IMG/VR virus record: IMGVR_UViG_3300032093_014002
Coordinates: 1 to 37,597 of that record
DNA: 37,597 bases
Strand: one strand, 5' to 3'
Source: a virus
The notes under the pieces were generated by a model. That model saw only the letters and a list, made by a program, of their open reading frames with translations. It was not told where the DNA came from and made no database searches. Shown piece after piece: positions 824-12,510 of the stretch. Position 1 is the stretch's first letter. The number at the start of each line of letters is the position of its first letter. The position numbers were made by a program, and so were the translations under genes.

Positions 824-1456
824 ATGGAAAAGATCTTTTCACTCATCAAGGAAGCCAACGACGAAGTGCTTTGGATGTTCAGCAGGGACGTACACGACCT
901 CATCCTTGAGAAGTACTACAGCACCTATTGGCCCGATGTGCCCGAAGGATTCGATGAGAGCAAGACGAAGTCGATCGAGATGATCGTCAACCTTCACGAA
1001 TGTAAGAACATACTCGACGTTGGCTGTGGGTACAACCACTTCAAAGATAAGTTTCCAGAGGCCAAGTTCACAGCGATTGAGCCGTTCATCGACGGCGCCG
1101 ACTATAAGATGACGGTGACAGAGTACCAGCGTAACTTTCCCGATCGTCAGTACGACTGCGTCATGGCTCTGGGCTCGATAAACTTTGGACCTAGGGCGAA
1201 GATCCTCGAGGAAGTGGAGGCGATAGATAAGCTTACGCGTCCCGAGGGAATCCAGATCTGGAGGGTCAATCCCCGCGACAAGCCATTCGTCGACGAGAGG
1301 TTCCCCATCTCTGAGCTCATACAGTACTTCAGCTGGGACGAACCGTTCATCAGGCACATCAGCGAGGTGTACAACTATAAGCTGATCGAGTATAAAGAGG
1401 AGATGAACTACAGCAACGATCGAAGGATCTTCTTTATAATGAAGAAGGGCCTCTGA
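824..1456 (+). CDS. SAM-dependent methyltransferase (class I)
   Basis: A 210-residue protein. ILDVGCGYN (63-71) is motif I of class I S-adenosylmethionine methyltransferases. E86 in TAIEPF, at the end of the second strand, is in position to bind the SAM ribose. DCVMALGSINFG (111-122) fits motif IV. The remainder has the expected alternating helix/strand pattern, but no substrate-specific domain is visible. It starts 1 base after the upstream stop and its stop overlaps the tctA start (ATGC at 1456), so translation is probably coupled. It resembles the methyltransferase-like protein at 36484 in length and motif I spacing. The substrate might be a small metabolite or a surface glycan. That is inference. 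Confidence 0.75.
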   Translation: MEKIFSLIKEANDEVLWMFSRDVHDLILEKYYSTYWPDVPEGFDESKTKSIEMIVNLHECKNILDVGCGYNHFKDKFPEAKFTAIEPFIDGADYKMTVTEYQRNFPDRQYDCVMALGSINFGPRAKILEEVEAIDKLTRPEGIQIWRVNPRDKPFVDERFPISELIQYFSWDEPFIRHISEVYNYKLIEYKEEMNYSNDRRIFFIMKKGL

Positions 1457-2901
1457 TGCTTGAGTACTTGGTCTGGCTGATAGCGGGAACTTTATACGGC
1501 TTCGTGTTTGGTCTCATTCCAGTGGCTGGTGCGGCTACTGCTTTGATCACAATCTACAGTTTCCTTGATGTGTTTAGACACGACCCATACACTTTAGTCG
1601 TATTCACGACATCTATAGTAGTCTCAAGCACTATAGGCGACAGCTTCTCAAGCGTCATGTTGAACGTTCCCGGTGCGAGCGGTTCGGCGGCGACTATGGT
1701 CGACGGCTTTCCACTCGCTAAGAAGGGCAGGGGTGCCTACGCCATGTCGGCGGCGATCACCACGAGTGCGATCAATGGGTTGATCTGGGGGCTACTTGTA
1801 TTCTTACTCCTTCCCTACTACGGTGCGGCGGTGCTTTCGTTCGGCATACCGGAGCAACTTGCGTTCATGCTCTTGGCATTCACGACGGTGAGCTTCATCG
1901 CCAGCGGTTACTGGTTCAGGTCGTTGATGGGACTTGTAATTGGAATCTTTGCCGGAATGATTGGTCAAGACCCAATGTCGGGTGTACCTAGGTTTACGTT
2001 TGGTTGGCAATACTTAGAAGCAGGTGTGCAGATAATACCTATCCTCGCCGGCGTCCTTGCGTTCCCTGAACTGCTGCAGCTCTATTTCTCAAAGTTTGAA
2101 AAGGTGTCTCTAAAGATAGATGACTATAGGAAGCAAGTAGTCGATGGTGTAAAAGACAGCTTTACTCATTGGAAAGATGGACTACGCGGCGGGGCGATCG
2201 GTGCATTCGTAGGAACCCTTCCGGGAATAGGTGGCAACGTTGCCGATTGGATGGCTTATTCGCAAACGGTCGCATTAAACAACAAAGAGACTTATGGCAA
2301 CGGAAACATACGCGGGGTCATAGGCTGCGAGGGAGCCAACAACGCGCAGAAGGCGACCGGATACATACCGACCGTACTGTTTGGGATTCCCGCTGCACCG
2401 TTTGAGGTGATCATCCTAAGCCTCTTCGTCTTAGTGGGAATCGAGCTCGGAACACCTGCTCTTTTGAAGGACACGAAGTTCTTTGATACTCTAACGATGA
2501 GCTACGTCGCTTCGCTGGCATTATCATTCTTGATAGCGATGGCCACCATCAAGTACATCGGTAAGATCTTTGAGGTGCGCATCGACTACTGGTTCTGGCC
2601 AATCGTTGCCTTAGTCGTCTGGAGCTGCGTTCAATACACCGGTTACGTCGAAGACTACTTGATGCTTGCGGCCTGTGTCGCTCTTGGATTCTTTCTCAAA
2701 CACTTTAAGTTCGGTAGGGCTTCATTCATCATAGGCTTCGTCCTTAGCGACAGGCTGGAGAAGCTCGCTTATCAGTACAGATCATTGTTTGAACCCTTCG
2801 ACATACTTATGAGACCTATAAGTTTAACGCTTGTCATCTTGGCGATCTTTGCCATGGTGTATGGTGTATTCTTCAACAAAGCAAAGGTAGACTACGCATG
2901 A
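1456..2901 (+). CDS. tctA: TctA-family tripartite tricarboxylate transporter, large permease
   Basis: A 481-residue polytopic membrane protein with about 11-12 hydrophobic segments, close to the roughly 500 residues usual for TctA. Family signatures are clear: LNVPGASGSAATMVDGFPLA (from about residue 73), GTLPGIGGNVADW in the middle, and EGANNAQKATGYIPTVLFGI after it. TctA forms the transport channel of secondary, ion-coupled TTT transporters that take up citrate, tartrate and other carboxylates delivered by a periplasmic TctC protein. A candidate TctC is encoded two genes downstream. The usual small permease TctB is absent and an oxygenase gene sits between them. The gene is coupled to its neighbours by a 1-base overlap upstream and an ATGA overlap downstream. 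The substrate cannot be read from sequence. Confidence 0.92.
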   Translation: MLEYLVWLIAGTLYGFVFGLIPVAGAATALITIYSFLDVFRHDPYTLVVFTTSIVVSSTIGDSFSSVMLNVPGASGSAATMVDGFPLAKKGRGAYAMSAAITTSAINGLIWGLLVFLLLPYYGAAVLSFGIPEQLAFMLLAFTTVSFIASGYWFRSLMGLVIGIFAGMIGQDPMSGVPRFTFGWQYLEAGVQIIPILAGVLAFPELLQLYFSKFEKVSLKIDDYRKQVVDGVKDSFTHWKDGLRGGAIGAFVGTLPGIGGNVADWMAYSQTVALNNKETYGNGNIRGVIGCEGANNAQKATGYIPTVLFGIPAAPFEVIILSLFVLVGIELGTPALLKDTKFFDTLTMSYVASLALSFLIAMATIKYIGKIFEVRIDYWFWPIVALVVWSCVQYTGYVEDYLMLAACVALGFFLKHFKFGRASFIIGFVLSDRLEKLAYQYRSLFEPFDILMRPISLTLVILAIFAMVYGVFFNKAKVDYA

Positions 2902-3629
2902 CAGAGTACGAGAATTGGGGCGACAGCCGCTGGGAGTATACTAAGAGCCAGAGCAAGTGGCACTTCGACCCAAGCGTCCCGCCGACACCGGGAGCCGACA
3001 GCTACACGCACGTCTGCAGGTTCACCAACGACTTCACGGATGCGATCGTTAAGTGCCTCCCTGAAGCGAAAGCTTCGACGTGGAGCTCACGCAACAACTA
3101 CGACAAGAAGATCGAGCAGGAAGGTCTATACTCAGCCACGCCTGAGGAGAACGACTTGATTCGCGCCGGCGCCAATCCTAAGATGGAGGTGTTCAAGCGC
3201 ACCGAGGCGAAAGACGTTGAGATCTTCAGGCGCGTGGCTAGGTGGCTCGGCTTGGAAGACCCAAGCATTAAGTTCCACAACCAGACGACCGGACAGATGC
3301 TCGTTTGGCACATCGACAACTTCGCCGCGCGCCCTGAGAGGGAGAACAGCTACAAAGTGACGGAGTTCGACAAGGACCCATCGACCATGAGGCGCTTCGC
3401 GGTGATGCTCGACGATTGGAAGCACGGACAGGTGTTTCAGCTCGGCAACGCGTTCTTCACCCAGTGGAGGGCCGGCGACTGCATCACTTGGGAATGGCGT
3501 GACATGCCTCACGCGACCTGCAACATGGGGTGGTGGGATCGACCTATGCTGCAGCTGACCGGTTACACCACTGAAGTGACCAAACAGATCCTCAATAAAG
3601 CTAATAAGAACTGGTACTTGGAGGTATAA
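2898..3629 (+). CDS. 2-oxoglutarate/Fe(II)-dependent oxygenase (Asp/Asn hydroxylase-like)
   Basis: A 243-residue protein with the double-stranded beta-helix metal triad. H138-x-D140 is in VWHIDN, distal H205 is in DMPHAT, and R215 in WWDRPMLQL, ten residues later, is placed to bind the 2-oxoglutarate carboxylate. This arrangement is typical of the aspartyl/asparaginyl/prolyl hydroxylase group, many members of which occur in T4-like marine phages. The reaction would couple 2-oxoglutarate decarboxylation to hydroxylation of an unknown target, small molecule or protein. The gene overlaps tctA by ATGA and abuts the tctC start, so it is embedded in the transporter cassette. A link between imported carboxylates and its co-substrate is speculative. 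Confidence 0.8.
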   Translation: MTEYENWGDSRWEYTKSQSKWHFDPSVPPTPGADSYTHVCRFTNDFTDAIVKCLPEAKASTWSSRNNYDKKIEQEGLYSATPEENDLIRAGANPKMEVFKRTEAKDVEIFRRVARWLGLEDPSIKFHNQTTGQMLVWHIDNFAARPERENSYKVTEFDKDPSTMRRFAVMLDDWKHGQVFQLGNAFFTQWRAGDCITWEWRDMPHATCNMGWWDRPMLQLTGYTTEVTKQILNKANKNWYLEV

Positions 3630-4694
3630 ATGAAGAAGATTCTACTCGCTATCGCGGCGGTCGCCGTCAGCGCATCGGCCGCGCTGGCCGACTATAGGCT
3701 CATCGTTCCACAGAAGCCGGGAGGCGGCACGTCCGTCTGGGCCACCATCGTGTCGAAGCACCTTGAGAAGTTTATCGGTGAGCCCGTCATCGTTGAGCAC
3801 ATCCCAGGTGCTCAAGATATTCCTGGGTTCAATAAGTTTCACAACGAGCTTCAGAAAGATCCGAAAGTGATCATGGTCGCGCACGGTGGAAACGCCGAGA
3901 GCTTCCTCACGGACAAGGTCGACTACGACTACGATAAGTACGACCCGATCGCTCTCGTCAACCTCAACATCACAGTGAGCCACATGGCCGAGCCCTTCGA
4001 TCCATACTCGCAGCGCATCAAGTTCGGCAGCACCTCAGGTCGTCGTCCGGACGTCATGGCGATAACACTTCTCGTGTGCGGACCAAAGAAGAACGTCGAT
4101 GAATACATCGCCTGCTTCAATGAACACATCACCTTCGTCAAGGGAATGGATCCAACCGAAGCGCGTCTCGCGGCGCTCCGCGGTGAGCTGAACGTGGTTC
4201 GTGAGACGTTCGTGAGTCAGAAGAAGTTCATTGAGCCTACCGTCAAAGAGGGTAAGTTCAAGGAATGGTTCAACCACGGTGTGCTCGACCTCAAGACCGG
4301 TAGGATCGTGAAGGATAAGAACTTCGCATCGCCTAGCTTCGAGGAAGCGTACAAAGCTAAGTGGGGCAAGGCTCCTTCCGGTGAATTCTACGACGCCTAC
4401 GTTCTCGTGAAGAACTACCGCGACGTCCTTCAGAAGTCCCTATGGGTCGGTAAGAACAACCCAAACAAGGCGAAGCTTCAGCAGGCCGTAAGGAAGATGC
4501 TTGAAGATCCTGAGGCGCGGGCCGAGATCGTCAAAGACGGTGGAGACTATGAGTGGTTCATCGGCGACGACATGCTCAACGCCTACAATAAGATCAAGAA
4601 GTCGTTGAATGAGAAGTCGCTTCAAACGCTCGTCAAGTTCACCAACGAAGCACTTGAGATCAACTCGGTCTATAAGCCAGAGATCTTAAAGTGA
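3630..4694 (+). CDS. tctC: TctC/Bug-type periplasmic solute-binding protein
   Basis: A 354-residue protein with a classical Sec signal peptide (MKKILLAIAAVAVSASAALA, predicted cut before DYRL). The mature N-terminus RLIVPQKPGGGTSVWATIV, followed by GEPVIVEHIPGA, matches the hallmark start of TctC/Bug proteins (IVPFPPGGG and VVENRPGA). These proteins bind carboxylates such as citrate, nicotinate, glutamate or terephthalate and deliver them to TctA/TctB. A GTSSGRRPDVMAI-like ligand-loop segment and a long helical C-terminus are also present. At about 20-30 residues longer than usual it appears intact. It starts directly after the oxygenase stop with an upstream GGAGG, and its stop overlaps the GTG start of the next gene. 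Confidence 0.9.
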   Translation: MKKILLAIAAVAVSASAALADYRLIVPQKPGGGTSVWATIVSKHLEKFIGEPVIVEHIPGAQDIPGFNKFHNELQKDPKVIMVAHGGNAESFLTDKVDYDYDKYDPIALVNLNITVSHMAEPFDPYSQRIKFGSTSGRRPDVMAITLLVCGPKKNVDEYIACFNEHITFVKGMDPTEARLAALRGELNVVRETFVSQKKFIEPTVKEGKFKEWFNHGVLDLKTGRIVKDKNFASPSFEEAYKAKWGKAPSGEFYDAYVLVKNYRDVLQKSLWVGKNNPNKAKLQQAVRKMLEDPEARAEIVKDGGDYEWFIGDDMLNAYNKIKKSLNEKSLQTLVKFTNEALEINSVYKPEILK

Positions 4695-5344
4695 GCGGCG
4701 ACTACATATTCGTCACAGGCGCACCGGGCTCCAAATGGAGCTCGGTGGTTCGCAGCATCTACTTCAGCGGCGACATCAACCAGAGCGACTTCTCCTTAGA
4801 TCGCAGGTACTATCACGACGCTTCGGGCAAGCGTCAGCTCATGCATCTCGGGTCGTACTTTGATCCGGGAATGGAGTTCGGCGACAACTTTAAGATGTTC
4901 AGTATGCTCAGCAAGGAGGAAGCCGAAGCTGAGTTCGATCGACCCTTCACGCACGGAATCGGAAGGAAGATAGTTAAGAGTCACTTCTTCGCCTATCACT
5001 TGGACGACCTCAAAGAGAAGTGGAAAGATCCTATAGTCTTAGTCTACCGCGACTCGGACGCGTGCTTAGGGTGGTGGATCAGGTGCGGTCACTTCAACAT
5101 CACCTACCCTAAGTACGACTACTATAAAAACATCGACGGGATGGTCAAGTATGTAGACGCACAGAATAAGCACATCAAGCGTTTCATAGATGAGAACGAA
5201 GTCCTACAGGTCTGGAACAGTCTCGAGCTGGCCCAGGCGCTGGGATTAGACGACGAGGGCGTCTACCACCAAGACTACAGGCGAAGCGACGTCAAGGTCT
5301 ACGTATACTGGTCGAGATACGACGGGAGCCAAGCTTTTCTTTGA
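4691..5344 (+). CDS. Sulfotransferase-like P-loop protein (paralogue B)
   Basis: A 217-residue paralogue of the protein at 208, read from a GTG that overlaps the tctC stop (GTGA). The P-loop GAPGSKWSS is at about residues 10-18. RKIVKSHFF (about 92-100) matches the conserved KxxKxH segment. LVYRDSDACLGWW keeps R120, but glycine (G127) replaces the serine of the 3'-phosphate motif seen in paralogue A. The paralogues align across most of their length, including LMHLGSYFDPG versus SYHSGVYFGP. It is the last gene of the accessory operon, and a late promoter follows at once. It may be a divergent or altered-specificity sulfotransferase. Activity is unproven. Confidence 0.55.
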   Translation: MSGDYIFVTGAPGSKWSSVVRSIYFSGDINQSDFSLDRRYYHDASGKRQLMHLGSYFDPGMEFGDNFKMFSMLSKEEAEAEFDRPFTHGIGRKIVKSHFFAYHLDDLKEKWKDPIVLVYRDSDACLGWWIRCGHFNITYPKYDYYKNIDGMVKYVDAQNKHIKRFIDENEVLQVWNSLELAQALGLDDEGVYHQDYRRSDVKVYVYWSRYDGSQAFL

Positions 5345-5347
5345 CAT

Positions 5348-5355
5348 TATAAATA
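5348..5355 (+). promoter_or_regulatory. T4-type late promoter box TATAAATA (tail-fibre operon)
   Basis: An exact match to the T4 late -10 element, 25 bases before the ATG at 5380 and just after the stop of the accessory operon. It marks the switch from the accessory unit to virion genes. Recognition by gp55 (encoded at 33142) is inferred. Confidence 0.75.
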
Positions 5356-5379
5356 GTTTGAAGCTAAGTCGAGGTTACC

Positions 5380-5706
5380 ATGGCAACGAAACTCAATCTG
5401 GTCATAGACCAAGGCGCGACCTACTCAAACGCGATACTTGTCAAAGATTCAAGCAACAACGCGATCGATCTCTCGACCTACACGGTCGCCGGTCAGATCA
5501 GGAAGTACTACACTTCTTCCAACAGCACATCCTTCACGGCGACCGGCAACAGCACCGGCTACGTCAACATCTCACTCACTTCAAACGCGACGGCGAACCT
5601 GTCTTCGGGCAGGTACGTCTACGACATTGAGATCACCAGCAACACGGGCGTAGTGACCCGCGTTACTGAAGGCATCGCCACGATCACCCCTCAAGTGACA
5701 CGATAA
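5380..5706 (+). CDS. Small beta-rich virion protein, likely baseplate/fibre adaptor
   Basis: A 108-residue protein beginning MATKLNLVIDQGATYSNAI and made largely of Thr/Ser/Asn-rich beta-strand sequence. The N-terminal pattern (LxxxxGxTxxxxxxVKDxxNxxIDLxxYTVxGQIR) resembles small structural proteins next to fibres in marine T4-like phages and the N-terminal domain of upper baseplate proteins. It is the first gene behind the late promoter and is followed after 6 bases by the first fibre gene. A role as a fibre attachment or baseplate protein is inferred from context. No enzyme motif is present. Confidence 0.55.
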   Translation: MATKLNLVIDQGATYSNAILVKDSSNNAIDLSTYTVAGQIRKYYTSSNSTSFTATGNSTGYVNISLTSNATANLSSGRYVYDIEITSNTGVVTRVTEGIATITPQVTR

Positions 5707-5712
5707 CTCGAC

Positions 5713-7422
5713 ATGGATGAGAAGAAGCTCCTTGAGGGATTCGCCAAAGCTTTAGGCACTGCCGGCGAGAAGGCGCTCAAGGACATCGAAGATAAGAAGC
5801 TCAAGGAGAAGCAGTACCTAGAGGGTCTCGCTTCGATGCTTGGTCCTGAGGCGAAGCGTAAGCTTGAGGAGATCGAGAACGAGCAGGCTGAGAAGCAGCG
5901 CGCGCTTGAAGCTAAGAAGGAAGAAGCTCGAGCGAAGAGGGAGAAGGAGCAGAAGCTCCTCGATGAGATCAATAAGTCACTCAACGCTCTCGTGTCCGGC
6001 AACCCACAATACGTTGAAGCGATCGAGCAAGAAGTCGCTGAGACGATCGCTGAGCTTCCGATTGAAGAGACGATCGCCGCGACCGCTGAAGAGCCTATCG
6101 CCGAAGAAGCACCGGTAGAAGAGATCGAAGAGAACGCGGCTCAGCCTCAACCTGAGCTTCCAAAAGACGACATCATCACACTCGCGGTTAAAGACATCTC
6201 CAAGTCGGCACCCGGAAAGATACAAGACGTCGTCGATGAGCTTCCACGAGGCCTTCGTCGTGAGCTCGACATTCTTAAGAAGTCGATCGCCGACCTTCAC
6301 AGGTTCGCGACGAATCACTCGCAGATGGGCGGAGGCGGCGAAGTCAAGCTCGCGCGCTTAGACGACGTCGACGCCAGCACGATTGAAGACGGCTACTACC
6401 TGCAGTACGACGCCGCTTCTGGAAAGTTCATATTCGCCGCGGGCGGCGCCGGTGGTGGAGGAACAGGTCCAAGGGGTGCAAACGGTATTAGTGTAACCAA
6501 CGCCACGGTCAACGGCAACGGTTACCTCATCATAACTTATTCAAACTCCGCCACGTCGAACGCAGGCTACGTGGTTGGTGCTACAGGTCCGACGGGTGCC
6601 AATGGCGCGAACGGTGCGACCGGCGCGACTGGACCCACTGGCGCTACTGGAGCCACAGGACCCACCGGTGCAACTGGACCCACTGGACCGGCAGGCGCGA
6701 ACGGTGTCGATGGGATCTCAATAACAAATACATCGATCAGCGGCGGCTACCTCAACATAACTTATTCCAATTCGCATGTCGCGAACGTTGGATACGTCGT
6801 AGGACCAGCTGGTGCAAACGGCGCGAATGGCACCAACGGAACCAATGGAACGAATGGTACCAATGGAACCAACGGCGTCGATGGTGTCGGTATAACGAAC
6901 ACCGCGATAAGCGGTGGTTACCTCAACGTCACTTACTCCAATTCATATGTTGCTAACGTTGGATACGTCGTCGGCGCGTCTGGAGCTACAGGTGCAAATG
7001 GCATAAGCATAACAAACGCAGCGGTCGACGCAAACGGTTACTTAAAGATCACATATTCAAACACGTACGTCGCTAATGCCGGATACGTAGTCGGCGGCGG
7101 AGGTGGAGGAGGTGGATTCACCAACGGACAGTCGATCTCAGTCGCAACGATCGAAGTAGCAACTGCTTTAGTCCCAGCCACCAACAACACTGTTGACATA
7201 GGCACGGATGGTTTAAGGTTTCATACCCTCTATCTTTCAGGCAACACGATCGTCTTGGGAAACGCCACGATTGAAGCCATAAATAGTGGAGTTAATCTAC
7301 CCGAAGATTCAAAGGTCAACGGTAGACCTATAGCTACCGGCGCTTCCCTAATATACGACTGTGGGACGCCGACCACGGATTTTTCAGTCGGCATGAGCAT
7401 AGACTGTGGAGGAGTTACCTGA
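5713..7422 (+). CDS. Tail fibre with N-terminal coiled coil and collagen-like repeats
   Basis: A 569-residue protein. Residues 1-95 are charged, heptad-rich helix (many K/E/A), a likely trimeric coiled coil or virion anchor. Residues 105-150 are an acidic Pro/Glu linker, and 160-200 a further helix. From about 258 a 30-residue beta module (GIS.TN...GYL.ITYSNS...N.GYVVG) occurs four times (about 258-289, 334-364, 393-421, 430-460), separated by Gly-X-Y collagen-like tracts (290-333 and 365-391). A Gly-rich hinge at 461-468 precedes a C-terminal domain containing NTVDIGTDGLRFHTLYLSGN, a common fibre repeat. Collagen-like triplets in phage fibres form trimeric shafts. The next fibre shares the same module, so this could be the proximal part of a two-protein fibre. 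Confidence 0.8.
   Translation: MDEKKLLEGFAKALGTAGEKALKDIEDKKLKEKQYLEGLASMLGPEAKRKLEEIENEQAEKQRALEAKKEEARAKREKEQKLLDEINKSLNALVSGNPQYVEAIEQEVAETIAELPIEETIAATAEEPIAEEAPVEEIEENAAQPQPELPKDDIITLAVKDISKSAPGKIQDVVDELPRGLRRELDILKKSIADLHRFATNHSQMGGGGEVKLARLDDVDASTIEDGYYLQYDAASGKFIFAAGGAGGGGTGPRGANGISVTNATVNGNGYLIITYSNSATSNAGYVVGATGPTGANGANGATGATGPTGATGATGPTGATGPTGPAGANGVDGISITNTSISGGYLNITYSNSHVANVGYVVGPAGANGANGTNGTNGTNGTNGTNGVDGVGITNTAISGGYLNVTYSNSYVANVGYVVGASGATGANGISITNAAVDANGYLKITYSNTYVANAGYVVGGGGGGGGFTNGQSISVATIEVATALVPATNNTVDIGTDGLRFHTLYLSGNTIVLGNATIEAINSGVNLPEDSKVNGRPIATGASLIYDCGTPTTDFSVGMSIDCGGVT
6580..6711 (+). repeat. Collagen-like Gly-X-Y tract (GAT/GPT/GAN triplets)
   Basis: About 14 consecutive Gly-X-Y triplets, mostly G-A-T, G-P-T and G-A-N, coded by imperfect 9-base repeats. 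It forms the first collagen-like shaft segment of the fibre at 5713. Confidence 0.85.
6802..6885 (+). repeat. Collagen-like G-T-N tract
   Basis: Tandem Gly-Thr-Asn and Gly-Ala-Asn triplets coded by ggnaccaat/ggaacgaat units. It separates the second and third beta modules of the fibre at 5713. A very similar tract recurs at 7864-7947 in the next gene. Confidence 0.85.
7278..7285 (+). promoter_or_regulatory. Possible internal late promoter box CATAAATA
   Basis: It matches the NATAAATA late motif and lies inside the first fibre gene, 138 bases before the second fibre ATG. It could boost expression of the second fibre. As a coding-sequence match it may be chance. Confidence 0.25.
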
Positions 7423-10035
7423 ATGGCATTCATTCAGTTTCAATTCAGGAGAGGTTCTGAGGCCGAATGGGCTTCCGCCAACAGCGTTCTGGCGAACGGT
7501 GAGATCGGCGTCGCGCTTGATACACGCAACTTTAAGATTGGAAACGGCGTCGACGCATGGACCAACCTTTCTTATGGTGGTCTGCAGGGACCGAACGGGT
7601 CCACTGGTGTAGGAATCACAAGCGCTTTGGTGAACGCGAACGGTCACTTGATGGTGACTTTCTCGAACTCCGTCGTTGCAAACGCCGGCTACGTTGTCGG
7701 CGCGGCCGGACCGACCGGCAACACCGGCGCTAACGGTGCTGCTGGAGCGACAGGTGCAACTGGGGCGAATGGCGTCGGTATAACTTCAGCCACAATCGAC
7801 GGCAGCGGTTATTTGATCATCACCTATTCCAACTCAGCCACCGCGAATGCTGGATACGTGGTCGGACCGGCTGGAGCTAACGGTGCTAATGGTACTAATG
7901 GCACCAATGGAACCAACGGAGTAAACGGCGTCGATGGTTCAAACGGCATAAGCATCACTAGCTCAGTCGTAAACTCCAACGGCTACCTCATCATAACCTA
8001 CTCAAACTCTGCGACTTCAAACGCGGGATACGTAGTAGGTAACTTCGATGCAAACACAGCTGGATCGTTGAATGTAAACAGCTCGCTTACGTCTAACAAC
8101 GCTTCCTACTTAGGAGGCAACAGCGCGGCAGATCTTAGGACCTATGCCGACAATAAAGCTGGAAACGCTTATTCCAACGCGGTCGCTTACACCGACGCAA
8201 CCTTCCAGACTATGACGGGTCTAAGCGCTAATGTGGCGATCTTAAGTGCAAACGCCGCTACGTACTTGAATGGTAAGACTGAGTCGAACCTCAACGTCAA
8301 CAACTCTTTGACTTCAAACAACGCCAGCTACCTCGGCGGAAACACCGCTTCTGACTTAAGAACTTATACCGACAACAAATCCGGAAACGCGTACACCAAC
8401 GCGACCACCTTTGCCTCAAACGCCACAAACATCTCAAGCGGCACATTGGGTGAAGCGCGCCTTCCATATAGGATGGATCAGAACGTAAGGACTACCGACA
8501 CCGTCTCGTTTGGAAACATGACGATCACGGGCAACCTCACCGTGACAGGCAACGTCGCGGTGATCGGGGCGAACAACCTTACGCTCATCGATAACATGAT
8601 CTACCTGAATAGTAACAACAACGTTACTAATCCAGACCTTGGCTTCGCCGGCAACTACAACGACGGTTCGTACCACCACGCAGGATTCTTCAGAGACGCG
8701 ACCGACGGTTTCTGGAAAGTGTTCGACAACTACGCGCCGGAGCCTGACGCTTCACCGTACATCGACACCGCCAACGCGACCTTCCACATCGCCGACTTCC
8801 ATGCCAACACGCATCGCGTGGGTAACACCTCGGTGTACGCGACGATCAACAGCACCGCTTTCTCAGGTTCTGCAAACAATGCTTCGTACCTCGGAGGCAC
8901 CGCGGCCGCTGGATATCAGACGACCGCTGGTTTGTCGGCAAACGTAGCGACCCTAACAGCCAACGCTGCTGGATACTTGAACGGTAAGACCGAGTCAAAC
9001 CTCAACGTCAACAGCGCATTGGTCTCTAACCTTGCGACATACATCGTGGCGAACACGGGTCTCGTTTCCAACGCGTCTGGTGTATTCGTAAACGCGTCAT
9101 ACGTTGCTACACAGAACGCCAACAACGCAACGTACGCGTTCGGCAAGTCTGAAGGCAACCTGAACGTAAACAACGCCCTCACCGCGAACAGCGCATCCTA
9201 CCTAGGATCTTCAAACAATACAGGAAACACCACTGGAATATACACCACCGGTGTAGTCACTGCCAATGGAACTATCACTGGACTAGATCTTGTTTCAACG
9301 GCTGCCAGTGGAGACGAAGGTGGTGAGATAAGGTTAGCAAAAGCACCGAATGGAACGACAAACGGTGTGATAACAATCGATGTTTATCAAAATAAAATAA
9401 GAATTTTTGAAAGCGGTGGCAATAATCGCGGAGCATATATTGATATCTCCGCAGCTGCAAACGGCGTTGGCACCAATCTTCTAACGGGTGGAGGTGGAGG
9501 CACCGGAACGGTGACTTCCGTTGGATCGGGAAATGGTCTCACCGGCGGTCCGATTACAGGATCTGGGACTCTTTCAATCCTTGCCAACACTGGAATCGTT
9601 GCAAACGCGACAGGGTTGTTTGTAAACTCTGCGTACATTGGAACCATAACGTCTAACAACGCAACATATGCATTCGGTAAGACCGAAGGAAACCTAAACG
9701 TCAACAACTCTTTGACGTCCAACAATGCTTCTTACCTGAACGACACGGCGGCCGCCAACTATGTGCAGAATACCGACTCAAGGACGCTATCAGGAAATCT
9801 TAACTTCACCGGCGCCAACACCACGATCTCAGGAAATTTAACGATCACGTCCACCGGCGAACTTATAATCACCAGCGGCGCAGGTATATATGCTAATGGA
9901 GGTCTTGGCAGTTCAGGTCAAGTACTTACGTCTAACGGCAGCTCAGTTTACTGGTCGACCCCGAGCTCCGGCGGCGGAAGCTCCAACGTTACAACAGGCA
10001 AGGCGATAGCGATGGCAATCGTCTTCGGAGGATAA
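7423..10035 (+). CDS. Long tail fibre with Mtd-like N-terminal domain and collagen/beta modules
   Basis: An 870-residue protein starting 1 base after the upstream stop. Residues 1-55 (FQFRRGSEAEWASANSVLA, GEIGVALDT, FKIGNGVDAW) match the small N-terminal domain found in major-tropism-determinant and many phage tail proteins. The 30-residue GYL.ITYSNS module occurs three times (64-93, 118-147, 175-206) between Gly-X-Y tracts. NLNVNNSLTSNNASYLGG-type repeats recur several times between about 214 and 730. Residues 365-460 hold a GNLTVTGNVAVIGANNL and LGFAGNYNDGSYHHAGFF region common in marine phage fibres. LTGGPITGSGTLSI and GQVLTSNGSSVYW follow, and the protein ends KAIAMAIVFGG, a typical fibre C-terminus. 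It is probably a receptor-binding or distal fibre. No chaperone or reverse-transcriptase partner is adjacent. Confidence 0.85.
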   Translation: MAFIQFQFRRGSEAEWASANSVLANGEIGVALDTRNFKIGNGVDAWTNLSYGGLQGPNGSTGVGITSALVNANGHLMVTFSNSVVANAGYVVGAAGPTGNTGANGAAGATGATGANGVGITSATIDGSGYLIITYSNSATANAGYVVGPAGANGANGTNGTNGTNGVNGVDGSNGISITSSVVNSNGYLIITYSNSATSNAGYVVGNFDANTAGSLNVNSSLTSNNASYLGGNSAADLRTYADNKAGNAYSNAVAYTDATFQTMTGLSANVAILSANAATYLNGKTESNLNVNNSLTSNNASYLGGNTASDLRTYTDNKSGNAYTNATTFASNATNISSGTLGEARLPYRMDQNVRTTDTVSFGNMTITGNLTVTGNVAVIGANNLTLIDNMIYLNSNNNVTNPDLGFAGNYNDGSYHHAGFFRDATDGFWKVFDNYAPEPDASPYIDTANATFHIADFHANTHRVGNTSVYATINSTAFSGSANNASYLGGTAAAGYQTTAGLSANVATLTANAAGYLNGKTESNLNVNSALVSNLATYIVANTGLVSNASGVFVNASYVATQNANNATYAFGKSEGNLNVNNALTANSASYLGSSNNTGNTTGIYTTGVVTANGTITGLDLVSTAASGDEGGEIRLAKAPNGTTNGVITIDVYQNKIRIFESGGNNRGAYIDISAAANGVGTNLLTGGGGGTGTVTSVGSGNGLTGGPITGSGTLSILANTGIVANATGLFVNSAYIGTITSNNATYAFGKTEGNLNVNNSLTSNNASYLNDTAAANYVQNTDSRTLSGNLNFTGANTTISGNLTITSTGELIITSGAGIYANGGLGSSGQVLTSNGSSVYWSTPSSGGGSSNVTTGKAIAMAIVFGG
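7699..7773 (+). repeat. Collagen-like tract in second fibre
   Basis: Eight Gly-X-Y triplets (GPT, GNT, GAN, GAA, GAT) between the first and second beta modules of the fibre at 7423. Confidence 0.8.
7864..7947 (+). repeat. Collagen-like G-A-N/G-T-N tract in second fibre
   Basis: Tandem Gly-Ala-Asn and Gly-Thr-Asn triplets, nearly the same protein sequence as the 6802-6885 tract in the preceding gene. This suggests exchange or duplication between the two fibre genes. Confidence 0.8.
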
Positions 10036-10036
10036 T

Positions 10037-10399
10037 ATGGCTAACCCAAACATAGTGAACGTCACTACGATCTATGGAAATACGTCGACGCTTTCGGTGA
10101 GCACCACGGCGGCGAACGTCGTACAGAATCCAAACGCTTCTGGAGCTGTATATAAGATCAATTCTTTGACGATCGCGAATATAAACACGACGCCGTCGGC
10201 AGTCTCAGTGACCGTTGAATACAACAACGCTGGAACGAATACCTACATCGCACGCGCGGTAACGGTGCCGGCAAACGCGTCTTTGACGATCTTAGGTAAA
10301 GACAACCCGATCTACCTCTTAGAAAACACTTCACTTCAGCTTACCGCTGGCGTGAATACTTCATTGACAGCAATTTGTAGTTTTGAGCAGATAAGCTAA
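10037..10399 (+). CDS. Small beta-sandwich-like virion protein
   Basis: A 120-residue Asn/Thr/Val-rich protein with no charged catalytic cluster. A GGAGG ribosome-binding site sits at the end of the previous gene and the stop overlaps the next ATG (TAATG). The pattern YKINSLTIANINTTPSAVSV, then Y.ARAVTVPANASLTILGK, then IYLLENTSLQL resembles short proteins near fibres in marine T4-like phages, probably an Ig-like or adaptor fold. It has a similar strand pattern to the 82-residue protein at 24723 (VRVINTGAAAVLNF and EFVVVEKQPTDTL). A virion-associated role is inferred from position between two fibres. Confidence 0.5.
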   Translation: MANPNIVNVTTIYGNTSTLSVSTTAANVVQNPNASGAVYKINSLTIANINTTPSAVSVTVEYNNAGTNTYIARAVTVPANASLTILGKDNPIYLLENTSLQLTAGVNTSLTAICSFEQIS

Positions 10400-12510
10400 T
10401 GGCAAGAATTAGGCCGGACGGTGGCGTACACGGAAGTGTAATCACATCGAACACAACAAGCGCGGTTGGCATGTGGTCTCTTAAAGATCTTGAAAGATCT
10501 GTAAGAAATACTGCTTGGCCCTCCCCTCCACCGGCTGTTGTGACAGATGCAAATTTTTACTACAATACTTTCTTGACTCATGCCGAAGGAACTGATGGAT
10601 CAAACAACACAGTATTTGTCGACGGTTCTACTAACTCGTTAATTATAAACACGAACGGTAAACCTCAACAGGGTTCATTTTCTCCATTCAGTCATACCGG
10701 TTGGTCTAATTATTTTAACGGCAGCAGCGACTATCTACAGGCAACGGTTACGGCACCGGACGCAGACTTTACGATCGAAGGCTGGGTAAATTTTAGCACA
10801 GTGTCATCGGGCGTAGGTAACTCACCGTCACCCTTTGCAATACTTGGTGCATCGAGCAGTGCAGGGTTTCAAGTTTACGGTAGCGCCTTAGGTTGGGCGG
10901 TAAGAAACAATTCTCAAAACATTCTAGGTGTCGGTGGAAGTTCTGGATTAGGAACGCCTCCGGTAGTCGGCAGGTGGTATCACGTCGCGTTTGTAAGAAA
11001 CTCCGGAACTGTAACACTCTATGTAGATGGTAGTTCAGTGGGATCCTCTTCAACTTCTTATACGTTCACCAATACGTCATTGACCATCGGCAGAAGCATT
11101 GTCGCTGGGACTTCATACTTTAATGGATACGTATCAAACTTGCGATACGTATCAAATCAAGCTCTTTACACTTCCAACTTCACTCCTTCGACGACCCCGC
11201 TCACAGAGGTTGGAGGTACAGATTTTCTCAGCTGTCAAAGTAATAGGTTTGTTGATAATTCAAGCAACGCTAGATCTATTACAATCACAAGCACAGCGAG
11301 CGTTCAACCCTTCTCTCCATTCGTGCCATCTTCTTCTTACTCTACCTCAACAGTTGGAGGGAGCGCATATCTCGCTGGTTCTTCCTCAGCAGATTATTTA
11401 CAGAGCAGTGGATTTTCTGCAGCACTGTTGCCTTCAACCGGTCAAGATTTTACAATTGAGTTTTGGGCTTATCCACTCGCCACTGCAAGACAAGACTGGT
11501 TCAACCTTCAGGCAACGTCAGGATTCAACAGAATCTTGTTCTATTATAGTGGGACTCAGATTGTTTATTCAGGAGGCGACTCAACAGCCGCCTCTGCAAG
11601 GATAACTTATACGACATCTCTTTTTAGGCAGTGGTATCACATCGCGCTTTGTAGATCTTCGGGATCGACTAAGATGTTTGTCAACGGAACGCAAGTTGGC
11701 TCCACTTACACCGATTCATTAAACTGGACAAACAACCTTCAATTCACTACCGGTAAGGATCCTGGTGGTTCTACTTATGTAACTGGCTATATGTCGAATA
11801 TAAGATACGTAAAAGGAACTGCGTTGTACACCAGCAACTTTACAGTACCAACTGCTCCTCTTACAGCCATTTCAAACACAGCTTTACTTTTAAACTTCAC
11901 AAACGCAGGCGTAATCGATCAAACTGGTAAAAACAACATTGTTAATTATGGTACTGCAACAATATCTACAACTCAAGAAAAATTTGGAAACTCTAGCATA
12001 TCAATACCAGCCGCGACTAATAGTTATTACCTCAGCACTTCTTCTGAGTTCTATGATTTAAGAGCTGGAAGTTGGACAATAGAGCTTTGGGTGTATCCAT
12101 TAGGAACATCTACAAGAACAGGATTCATATCAAAATCTAACTCTGCCGGCACAAGCGTTCCATTTCTTATTGAAATGACGTCTTCAGGTTTCTTACAGGC
12201 CATTGCTCAAGACGGTGTTAGTCAAAAAGTAATAACAGATGCTAGCTCACTGACGGCAAATGCTTGGACACACGTTGCTTTAGTAAGAAATGTGAATACT
12301 TTAACATTATACAAGAATGGCGTTTCTGTAGGAACACCGCAAACTTTATCCGGCGCTTTAGTCACCACCACGGATGAATTAAGAATCGGCGTAACAAAAT
12401 TTGCTTCATCAGGGGCAGGTTGTTATATAGATGACGTTAGAATCACCAAAGGTGTTGCTGTTTATACTACAGGATTCACACCTCCTTCAACTACTTTCGC
12501 TGATCAATGA
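10399..12510 (+). CDS. Tail protein with three LamG/concanavalin-A-like lectin domains
   Basis: A 703-residue protein. The N-terminal 45 residues (GMWSLKDLERSVRNTAWP) are a short segment usual at the start of this kind of marine phage protein. Three LamG-like jelly rolls follow, at about 100-268, 328-488 and 528-700. Each has the signature order FTIE.W, WYHVA(L/F).R, LY.(D/N)G and GY.SN.RYV...ALYTSNFT. Such domains bind glycans, so it is probably a receptor-binding or decorating tail protein. Codon use is visibly more AT-rich than in the neighbouring structural genes, which suggests separate acquisition. It overlaps the upstream gene by 1 base. No signal peptide or protease domain is seen. 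Confidence 0.8.
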   Translation: MARIRPDGGVHGSVITSNTTSAVGMWSLKDLERSVRNTAWPSPPPAVVTDANFYYNTFLTHAEGTDGSNNTVFVDGSTNSLIINTNGKPQQGSFSPFSHTGWSNYFNGSSDYLQATVTAPDADFTIEGWVNFSTVSSGVGNSPSPFAILGASSSAGFQVYGSALGWAVRNNSQNILGVGGSSGLGTPPVVGRWYHVAFVRNSGTVTLYVDGSSVGSSSTSYTFTNTSLTIGRSIVAGTSYFNGYVSNLRYVSNQALYTSNFTPSTTPLTEVGGTDFLSCQSNRFVDNSSNARSITITSTASVQPFSPFVPSSSYSTSTVGGSAYLAGSSSADYLQSSGFSAALLPSTGQDFTIEFWAYPLATARQDWFNLQATSGFNRILFYYSGTQIVYSGGDSTAASARITYTTSLFRQWYHIALCRSSGSTKMFVNGTQVGSTYTDSLNWTNNLQFTTGKDPGGSTYVTGYMSNIRYVKGTALYTSNFTVPTAPLTAISNTALLLNFTNAGVIDQTGKNNIVNYGTATISTTQEKFGNSSISIPAATNSYYLSTSSEFYDLRAGSWTIELWVYPLGTSTRTGFISKSNSAGTSVPFLIEMTSSGFLQAIAQDGVSQKVITDASSLTANAWTHVALVRNVNTLTLYKNGVSVGTPQTLSGALVTTTDELRIGVTKFASSGAGCYIDDVRITKGVAVYTTGFTPPSTTFADQ

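Follow-up and report, generated by a model that had tools for sequence, protein, structure and literature searches.

A mosaic pair of phage fibre genes with a repeated beta module set between collagen-like tracts

The fibre gene pair and its setting

The stretch of DNA analysed here (the window; 37,597 bases) is the entire IMG/VR record IMGVR_UViG_3300032093_014002, with no larger genome behind it. Its terminase-, portal- and gp13-like genes place it among the T4-like myophages; the gp17-like terminase is about 55.6% identical to the terminases of S-SRM01 and P-SSM2. Two fibre genes are followed by a Laminin-G-type gene (10399-12510), an endolysin and then the neck genes. The host recognition cluster of pelagimyophages occupies the same place before the neck genes and is described as hypervariable, with collagen, Mtd and concanavalin-like domains (PMC7029224). 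The pair matches phage tail-fibre families by sequence (phrog_6320, phrog_5073, phrog_6049), and we propose that the two are neighbouring genes for tail fibres (or baseplate fibres) within the host-recognition cluster of a T4-like myovirus. The gene 1 stop codon abuts the gene 2 start codon (TGAATG), and a consensus scan found no separate promoter between the two. The sequence-only reading assigned its repeat to positions 5713-10035, a span that does hold both genes, the module-bearing part being only 6457-8040. The genes and their parts are listed below; relative A is the nearest relative (locus L005, IMGVR 3300033076_001354).

5380..5706 (+): small gene directly 5' of the fibres, 108 aa; phrog_1084; 94% identical to its counterpart in relative A
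5713..7422 (+): fibre gene 1, 569 aa, intact ORF
5713..6447 (+): gene 1 proximal region (head), long helices, ending GGGEVKLARLDDVD..DGYYLQYD..; common to gene-1-type proteins with unrelated distal parts
7096..7422 (+): gene 1 tail, with poly-Gly linker GGGGGGFTNGQSISV and terminal motif ..SIDCGGVT
7423..10035 (+): fibre gene 2, 870 aa, intact ORF
7423..7599 (+): head of gene 2, a domain of the Mtd_N type, MAFIQFQFRRG..; 503 phage records have heads like it
8041..8922 (+): body of gene 2; in A the corresponding segment shares a gene with a gene 1 head (88% aa identity over residues 321-500)
9685..10035 (+): gene 2 distal part, ending GKAIAMAIVFGG; its counterpart lies in a third gene of A

The structural model of the gene 1 head contains helices at residues 3-113 and 154-204, at a mean pLDDT of only 66. 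These helices are probably a coiled coil, and the proximal region would be the end that attaches to the virion. The poly-Gly linker of the gene 1 tail is also present in a different fibre gene of A. Like fibres of the cyanophage type, gene 2 opens with an N-terminal Mtd_N domain (PF18454, residues 7-43; 43.9 bits against a cut-off of 26.3), and 237 of the 503 phage records with similar heads are Synechococcus phages. Mtd proper is a target of diversity-generating retroelements; we rejected this assignment for gene 2, since no reverse transcriptase gene was found nearby. A search for PF00078 gave no match in the window (37.6 kb) or the 157-kb A contig, two records that may both be fragments, and the controls were detected. 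At its other end, gene 2 resembles the end of the MAFIQFQFRRG gene of another phage, L012 (GKAIAMTIVFGG). Asn-rich NLNVNNALTSNNASYLGGN repeats are scattered over several fibre genes, namely gene 2 of the window and two genes of A (at 5224 and at 9943), and might form another set of joints.

The small gene at 5380-5706 additionally resembles the L-shaped-tail-fibre assembly family phrog_3304. In the phages with its nearest relatives besides A (L055-L061), the next gene looks lysozyme/chitinase-like (..LRLAHFLAQ..HESGG..) and not like a fibre, and thus the small gene may be the site of a further, separate swap. Farther upstream, positions 1456-4694 encode a TctA permease (PF01970, E 9e-87), a 243-aa protein and an exported protein of 354 aa that weakly resembles TctC/Bug binding proteins. 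A has none of the three genes between the corresponding neighbours, which suggests a 3.2-kb insertion bringing a tricarboxylate-type transporter into a T4-like phage. Matches to the cluster in the phage collection stay below 31% identity and come from unannotated gut phage records and from Salmonella/Escherichia records; an earlier mention of tctA on viral contigs is limited to a domain hit (PMC4164917). Close to this fibre region, relative A has a gene like those of sodium/solute symporters (700-2154; TIGR00813, 131 bits, below the cut-off of 184). Transporter cargo thus seems to vary beside the fibres.

A three-stranded beta module between Gly-X-Y tracts

Gene 1 contains four copies of a short beta module and gene 2 another three, seven in all, with Gly-X-Y tracts between them, just as had been read from the letters of the DNA. 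Each copy scores 45-54 bits against a 21-sequence profile, compared with at most 6.4 bits in 1413 shuffled proteins, and no eighth copy was found at E<=1. The unit is 31 or 32 residues long rather than the 30 first given. The tracts are rich in A, T, N and P, nearly free of charge, and 3 to 15 triplets long. In order along the DNA, the modules and tracts are:

6484..6579 (+): beta module 1 (gene 1)
6580..6711 (+): Gly-X-Y tract 1 of gene 1; 15 triplets including the last Gly of module 1
6712..6804 (+): beta module 2 (gene 1)
6805..6882 (+): Gly-X-Y tract 2 of gene 1, NGT-rich
6883..6975 (+): beta module 3 (gene 1)
6976..6999 (+): Gly-X-Y tract 3 of gene 1, short; modules 3 and 4 are just three triplets apart
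7000..7095 (+): beta module 4 (gene 1)
7606..7701 (+): beta module 5 (gene 2)
7702..7770 (+): Gly-X-Y tract 1 of gene 2
7771..7866 (+): beta module 6 (gene 2)
7867..7944 (+): Gly-X-Y tract 2 of gene 2
7945..8040 (+): beta module 7 (gene 2)

Gene 1 matches the Pfam Collagen family (PF01391) at 39.4 bits, above the cut-off of 27.2; gene 2, at 22.1 bits, falls below it, yet its Gly-X-Y tracts are visible nonetheless. Exact repeats in this gene pair reach 20 nt at most, and exact matches from one gene to the other 17 nt. Repeats this short should not have led a short-read assembly to build the array, and an assembly artefact is thus unlikely.

An AlphaFold2 monomer model of the module (6457-6606; 35 natural sequences) is a three-stranded beta meander, with strands at residues 13-18, 23-28 and 33-38 of the 50-residue query and a pLDDT of about 87 in the module versus 53-56 in the poorly ordered collagen ends. 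With three strands, the modelled chain should exit opposite to where it entered, a topology that would fit a unit inserted in a rod. Twelve alignment columns are invariant among the seven window modules and the two copies of A, and conservation falls on glycines and strand residues.

What kind of unit is this? No Pfam model covers it. Gene 1 does exceed the cut-off for NigD_C (PF17415; 25.6 bits), but the best stretch covers only positions 14-35 of this 120-residue domain, and we rejected the assignment, the score being a sum of short stretches across the repeated modules. Sequence searches of the PDB with module profiles gave chance-level matches only (best E 0.06), and a Foldseek search of the PDB with the module model returned mostly single sheets of reductases (best E 0.49). 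Among predicted viral proteins, the leading fold matches are largely phage collagen-triple-helix/repeat and tail-fibre proteins (probability near 1; best E 0.002, an E value to be expected for 50 residues). A second look at the PDB with VIA-align gave Z scores of at most 3.3, the best match being the 40-residue Pholiota squarrosa lectin (rmsd 2.5 A, 39 residues aligned). This match raises the idea that each module is a trimeric mini-lectin, a small knob on the stalk that binds sugar and provides extra receptor contacts. However, a Z score of 3.3 is within the chance range for such short sheets, identity to the lectin is 8%, the other matches are unrelated proteins, and a pocket is not apparent among the conserved residues. 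We regard the mini-lectin reading as highly improbable, and no observation here points to receptor contact by the modules.

Copy number, age of the copies and a break inside a tract

Does the module array vary among phages? Its copy number differs from phage to phage: the window holds 4+3 copies, A holds two, relative B (L043) three, and other phages 1, 4, 8 or 12. In A, a single 1065-aa gene joins the gene 1 head (92% identity) to two modules and to the body found in window gene 2. Likewise, B has a single gene with a head of the gene 1 type (54%), three modules and another body. This comparison of A, B and the window draws on three contigs from metagenomes. Gene-1-type heads, at 29-92% identity, carry different distal parts in five further phages: a pure collagen stalk in L028, no stalk in L010, and other long bodies in L139, L143 and L145. 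We excluded loci L016-L021, which match just a short piece of the gene 2 body. A tblastn search of the phage collection with gene 1 returned no match, a result likely to stem from BLAST masking of collagen.

The module profile also matches a 517-kb phage contig with 8 copies, other contigs with 1, 4 and 12, and records of gut phages with 8 and 4 copies. Gut phage matches include L148, which scores up to 34 bits, and L161; Arthrobacter phage Mimi matches weakly, at 18 bits. Judged by these sequence matches, the module is a common part of phage collagen-like proteins and no peculiarity of this gene pair. Scanning genome contigs with two module alignments confirmed no bacterial relative, and these patterns were probably too narrow, because the gut phage records do hold the module. 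The protein of L148 (MT837718.1) also contains, at residues ~40-100, a different unit, SAYELAVQQGYAGSLDDWL, which matches tail/structural proteins of many Pseudomonas jumbo phages.

How old are the copies within the window? We compared codon agreement at identical residues with the agreement expected by chance. No pair of window modules rises above chance: one pair shares 9 of 23 codons (8.9 expected), modules 2 and 3 share 13 of 26 (9.7 expected, p 0.22), and the closer pairs pooled share 75 of 189 (70.1 expected). Module 1 and its counterpart in A, by comparison, share 28 of 30. Similarly, the most alike tracts of genes 1 and 2 share 21 of 24 residues, yet only 7 of 21 codons.

These values bear on the proposal, made by the sequence-only reading, that a cassette expands and exchanges between the two genes and so may tune fibre length or receptor contact. 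Copy number does vary among relatives, module 7 of gene 2 is the window module nearest to module 1 of gene 1 (84% aa identity), and modules 2 and 3, taken together with the tracts, make up a tandem unit of 171 nt. Nevertheless, codons agree at chance level in all window pairs, including modules 1 and 7 (11/27 against 10.0) and the alike tracts, and no exact word common to both genes exceeds the 17 nt given above. With synonymous codons at a random level, recent tandem growth or conversion between the genes is not supported, and we consider an active cassette quite unlikely. Synonymous saturation of these sequences could hide an old exchange. In a module tree with few resolved forks, used as a hint only, module 7 falls with the modules that come first in the window, A and B, which hints weakly at such an old event; the second module of A lacks a clear counterpart in any single window module. 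Exchange between phages is another matter, and here that reading fared better: in A the gene 2 body stands behind a gene 1 head, with the break in a tract. Across the relatives we found neither a fixed copy number nor a lack of exchange, the outcomes that would have told against that reading.

The break can be placed closely. From ~5200 to 6602, window and A DNA are 84-97% identical per 100 nt (about 93%). The alignment is then lost abruptly at ~6602-6617, inside the first long Gly-X-Y tract after module 1, and similarity returns shortly behind module 7. Codon sharing with A is 0.78 over 5380-6579 and 0.93 in module 1 (chance ~0.37). The adjoining upstream gene reaches 0.66, the two genes that precede the transporter cluster 0.54, and the body 0.49. 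The head block differs from the body (Fisher p 4.6e-13), the two upstream genes (3.7e-11) and the neighbouring gene (0.004). Higher sharing over 5380-6579 argues for a more recent common source than that of its surroundings, with one edge inside the collagen tract. Codon selection could also raise sharing, but it would not create an edge at the tract.

The junction between the two genes has its own distribution. The sequence ..DCGGV(S/T)-stop-MAFIQFQFRRG, at 7390-7455 in the window, recurs near 5960-6040 in four otherwise different phages, L008, L009, L012 and L015, where it adjoins small unrelated genes in front. It varies to NCGGVS in L012 and DCGWIT in L015, and L009 is nearly the same as L008. 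Thus, head type, junction block and body occur apart elsewhere, and the window pair is a mosaic joined in collagen.

One could instead regard the two-gene state of the window as ancestral, with A arising by a deletion between the cassettes of adjacent genes that fused the gene 1 head to the gene 2 body. The junction of gene 1 tail and gene 2 head is kept in other phages, so the two-gene order is not specific to the window. However, the gene before that junction is small and unrelated in those phages, B (the outgroup to the window and A) is likewise fused, and most gene-1-type heads run directly into long bodies. Furthermore, body codons (0.49) appear older than head codons (0.78), and a single deletion in place is insufficient to explain both. 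An ancestral two-gene state is, in our view, possible but doubtful.

Proposed fibre architecture and comparison with known systems

We propose, with a probability of roughly two in three, that genes 1 and 2 encode trimeric collagen-stalk fibres in which the modules are trimer knots, the tracts are recombination joints and the gene pair is a mosaic. Each protein would be a homotrimer with a virion-attaching proximal end, a stalk of collagen triple helix with modules set into it, and a body at the distal end. Trimerisation is suggested by the collagen fold and by analogy with studied phage collagen fibres (EPclA is trimeric in vitro, PMC3368898). Judging from their position, topology and conservation, the modules may act as trimeric knots that nucleate the triple helix, set its register, and stiffen and lengthen the stalk. 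The Gly-X-Y tracts, given the break in A and the mosaic, may be tolerant in-frame joints for recombination between fibre genes of different phages. The mosaic would comprise an A-type gene 1 head through module 1, a tail-stop-start-head block as in L009/L012, and a distal body that in A is placed behind the gene 1 head. Both genes would then share the module through splitting and joining of arrays at the joints, not through recent duplication or conversion, and the favoured order is that a fused gene was split, given the fused form of B and of most relatives. More broadly, the module could be a trimeric beta unit, widespread yet undescribed, in the collagen-like proteins of viruses (a register clamp, perhaps glycan-binding), its arrays forming a general platform for head and body exchange among unrelated phages; this generalisation we hold to be unlikely.

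Joints in fibre shuffling are usually inferred from flanking homology only, whereas here the break is placed within ~15 nt in a collagen tract, and the ages of codons tell the old copies of the module apart from a later swap. A description of the module would aid annotation of a large class of fibre genes, and the module, small and natural, might serve as a tag for the trimerisation of collagen-like proteins.

Phage fibres on collagen stalks with other domains interposed are known already, as is the shuffling of fibre domains (PMC3368898, PMC5601072, PMC10684548), while the module family appears to be undescribed in Pfam and in the open-licence papers found. The collagen-like fibres EPclA-D of EHEC prophages resemble the present ones in their helical proximal part, in a collagen stalk that varies in length and, for EPclB, in a pair of collagen blocks with the non-collagen repeat Pf2 between them (PMC3368898). 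In contrast, the EPcl proteins have other non-collagen domains, whereas here a 32-residue beta module recurs 3-4 times per gene in two adjacent genes; the EPcl domains PfN (PF08400), PfC (PF06820) and Pf2 (PF03406) gave no Pfam match in either gene at E<=1. Similarly, antireceptors of Streptococcus thermophilus phages combine collagen with fibre domains, their collagen repeats lying between domains of which one determines host range (Duplessis and Moineau, as cited in PMC5601072); the modules described here lie inside the collagen stalk instead. FibU (gp68) of Staphylococcus phage 80alpha (PDB 6v8i) is likewise a baseplate fibre with a predicted collagen-like stretch, but it has one short stretch, another attachment domain and no repeated module (PMC7048315). 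PclA of S. pneumoniae, as summarised in PMC8968730, also has a collagen region interspersed with non-collagen segments; it is a cell-anchored bacterial protein, unlike the fibres proposed here. Finally, the host recognition cluster of pelagimyophages and cyanomyophages is alike in being an island of fibre genes before the neck genes with the domains named above; the excerpt of PMC7029224 describes neither this module nor collagen tracts as break points.
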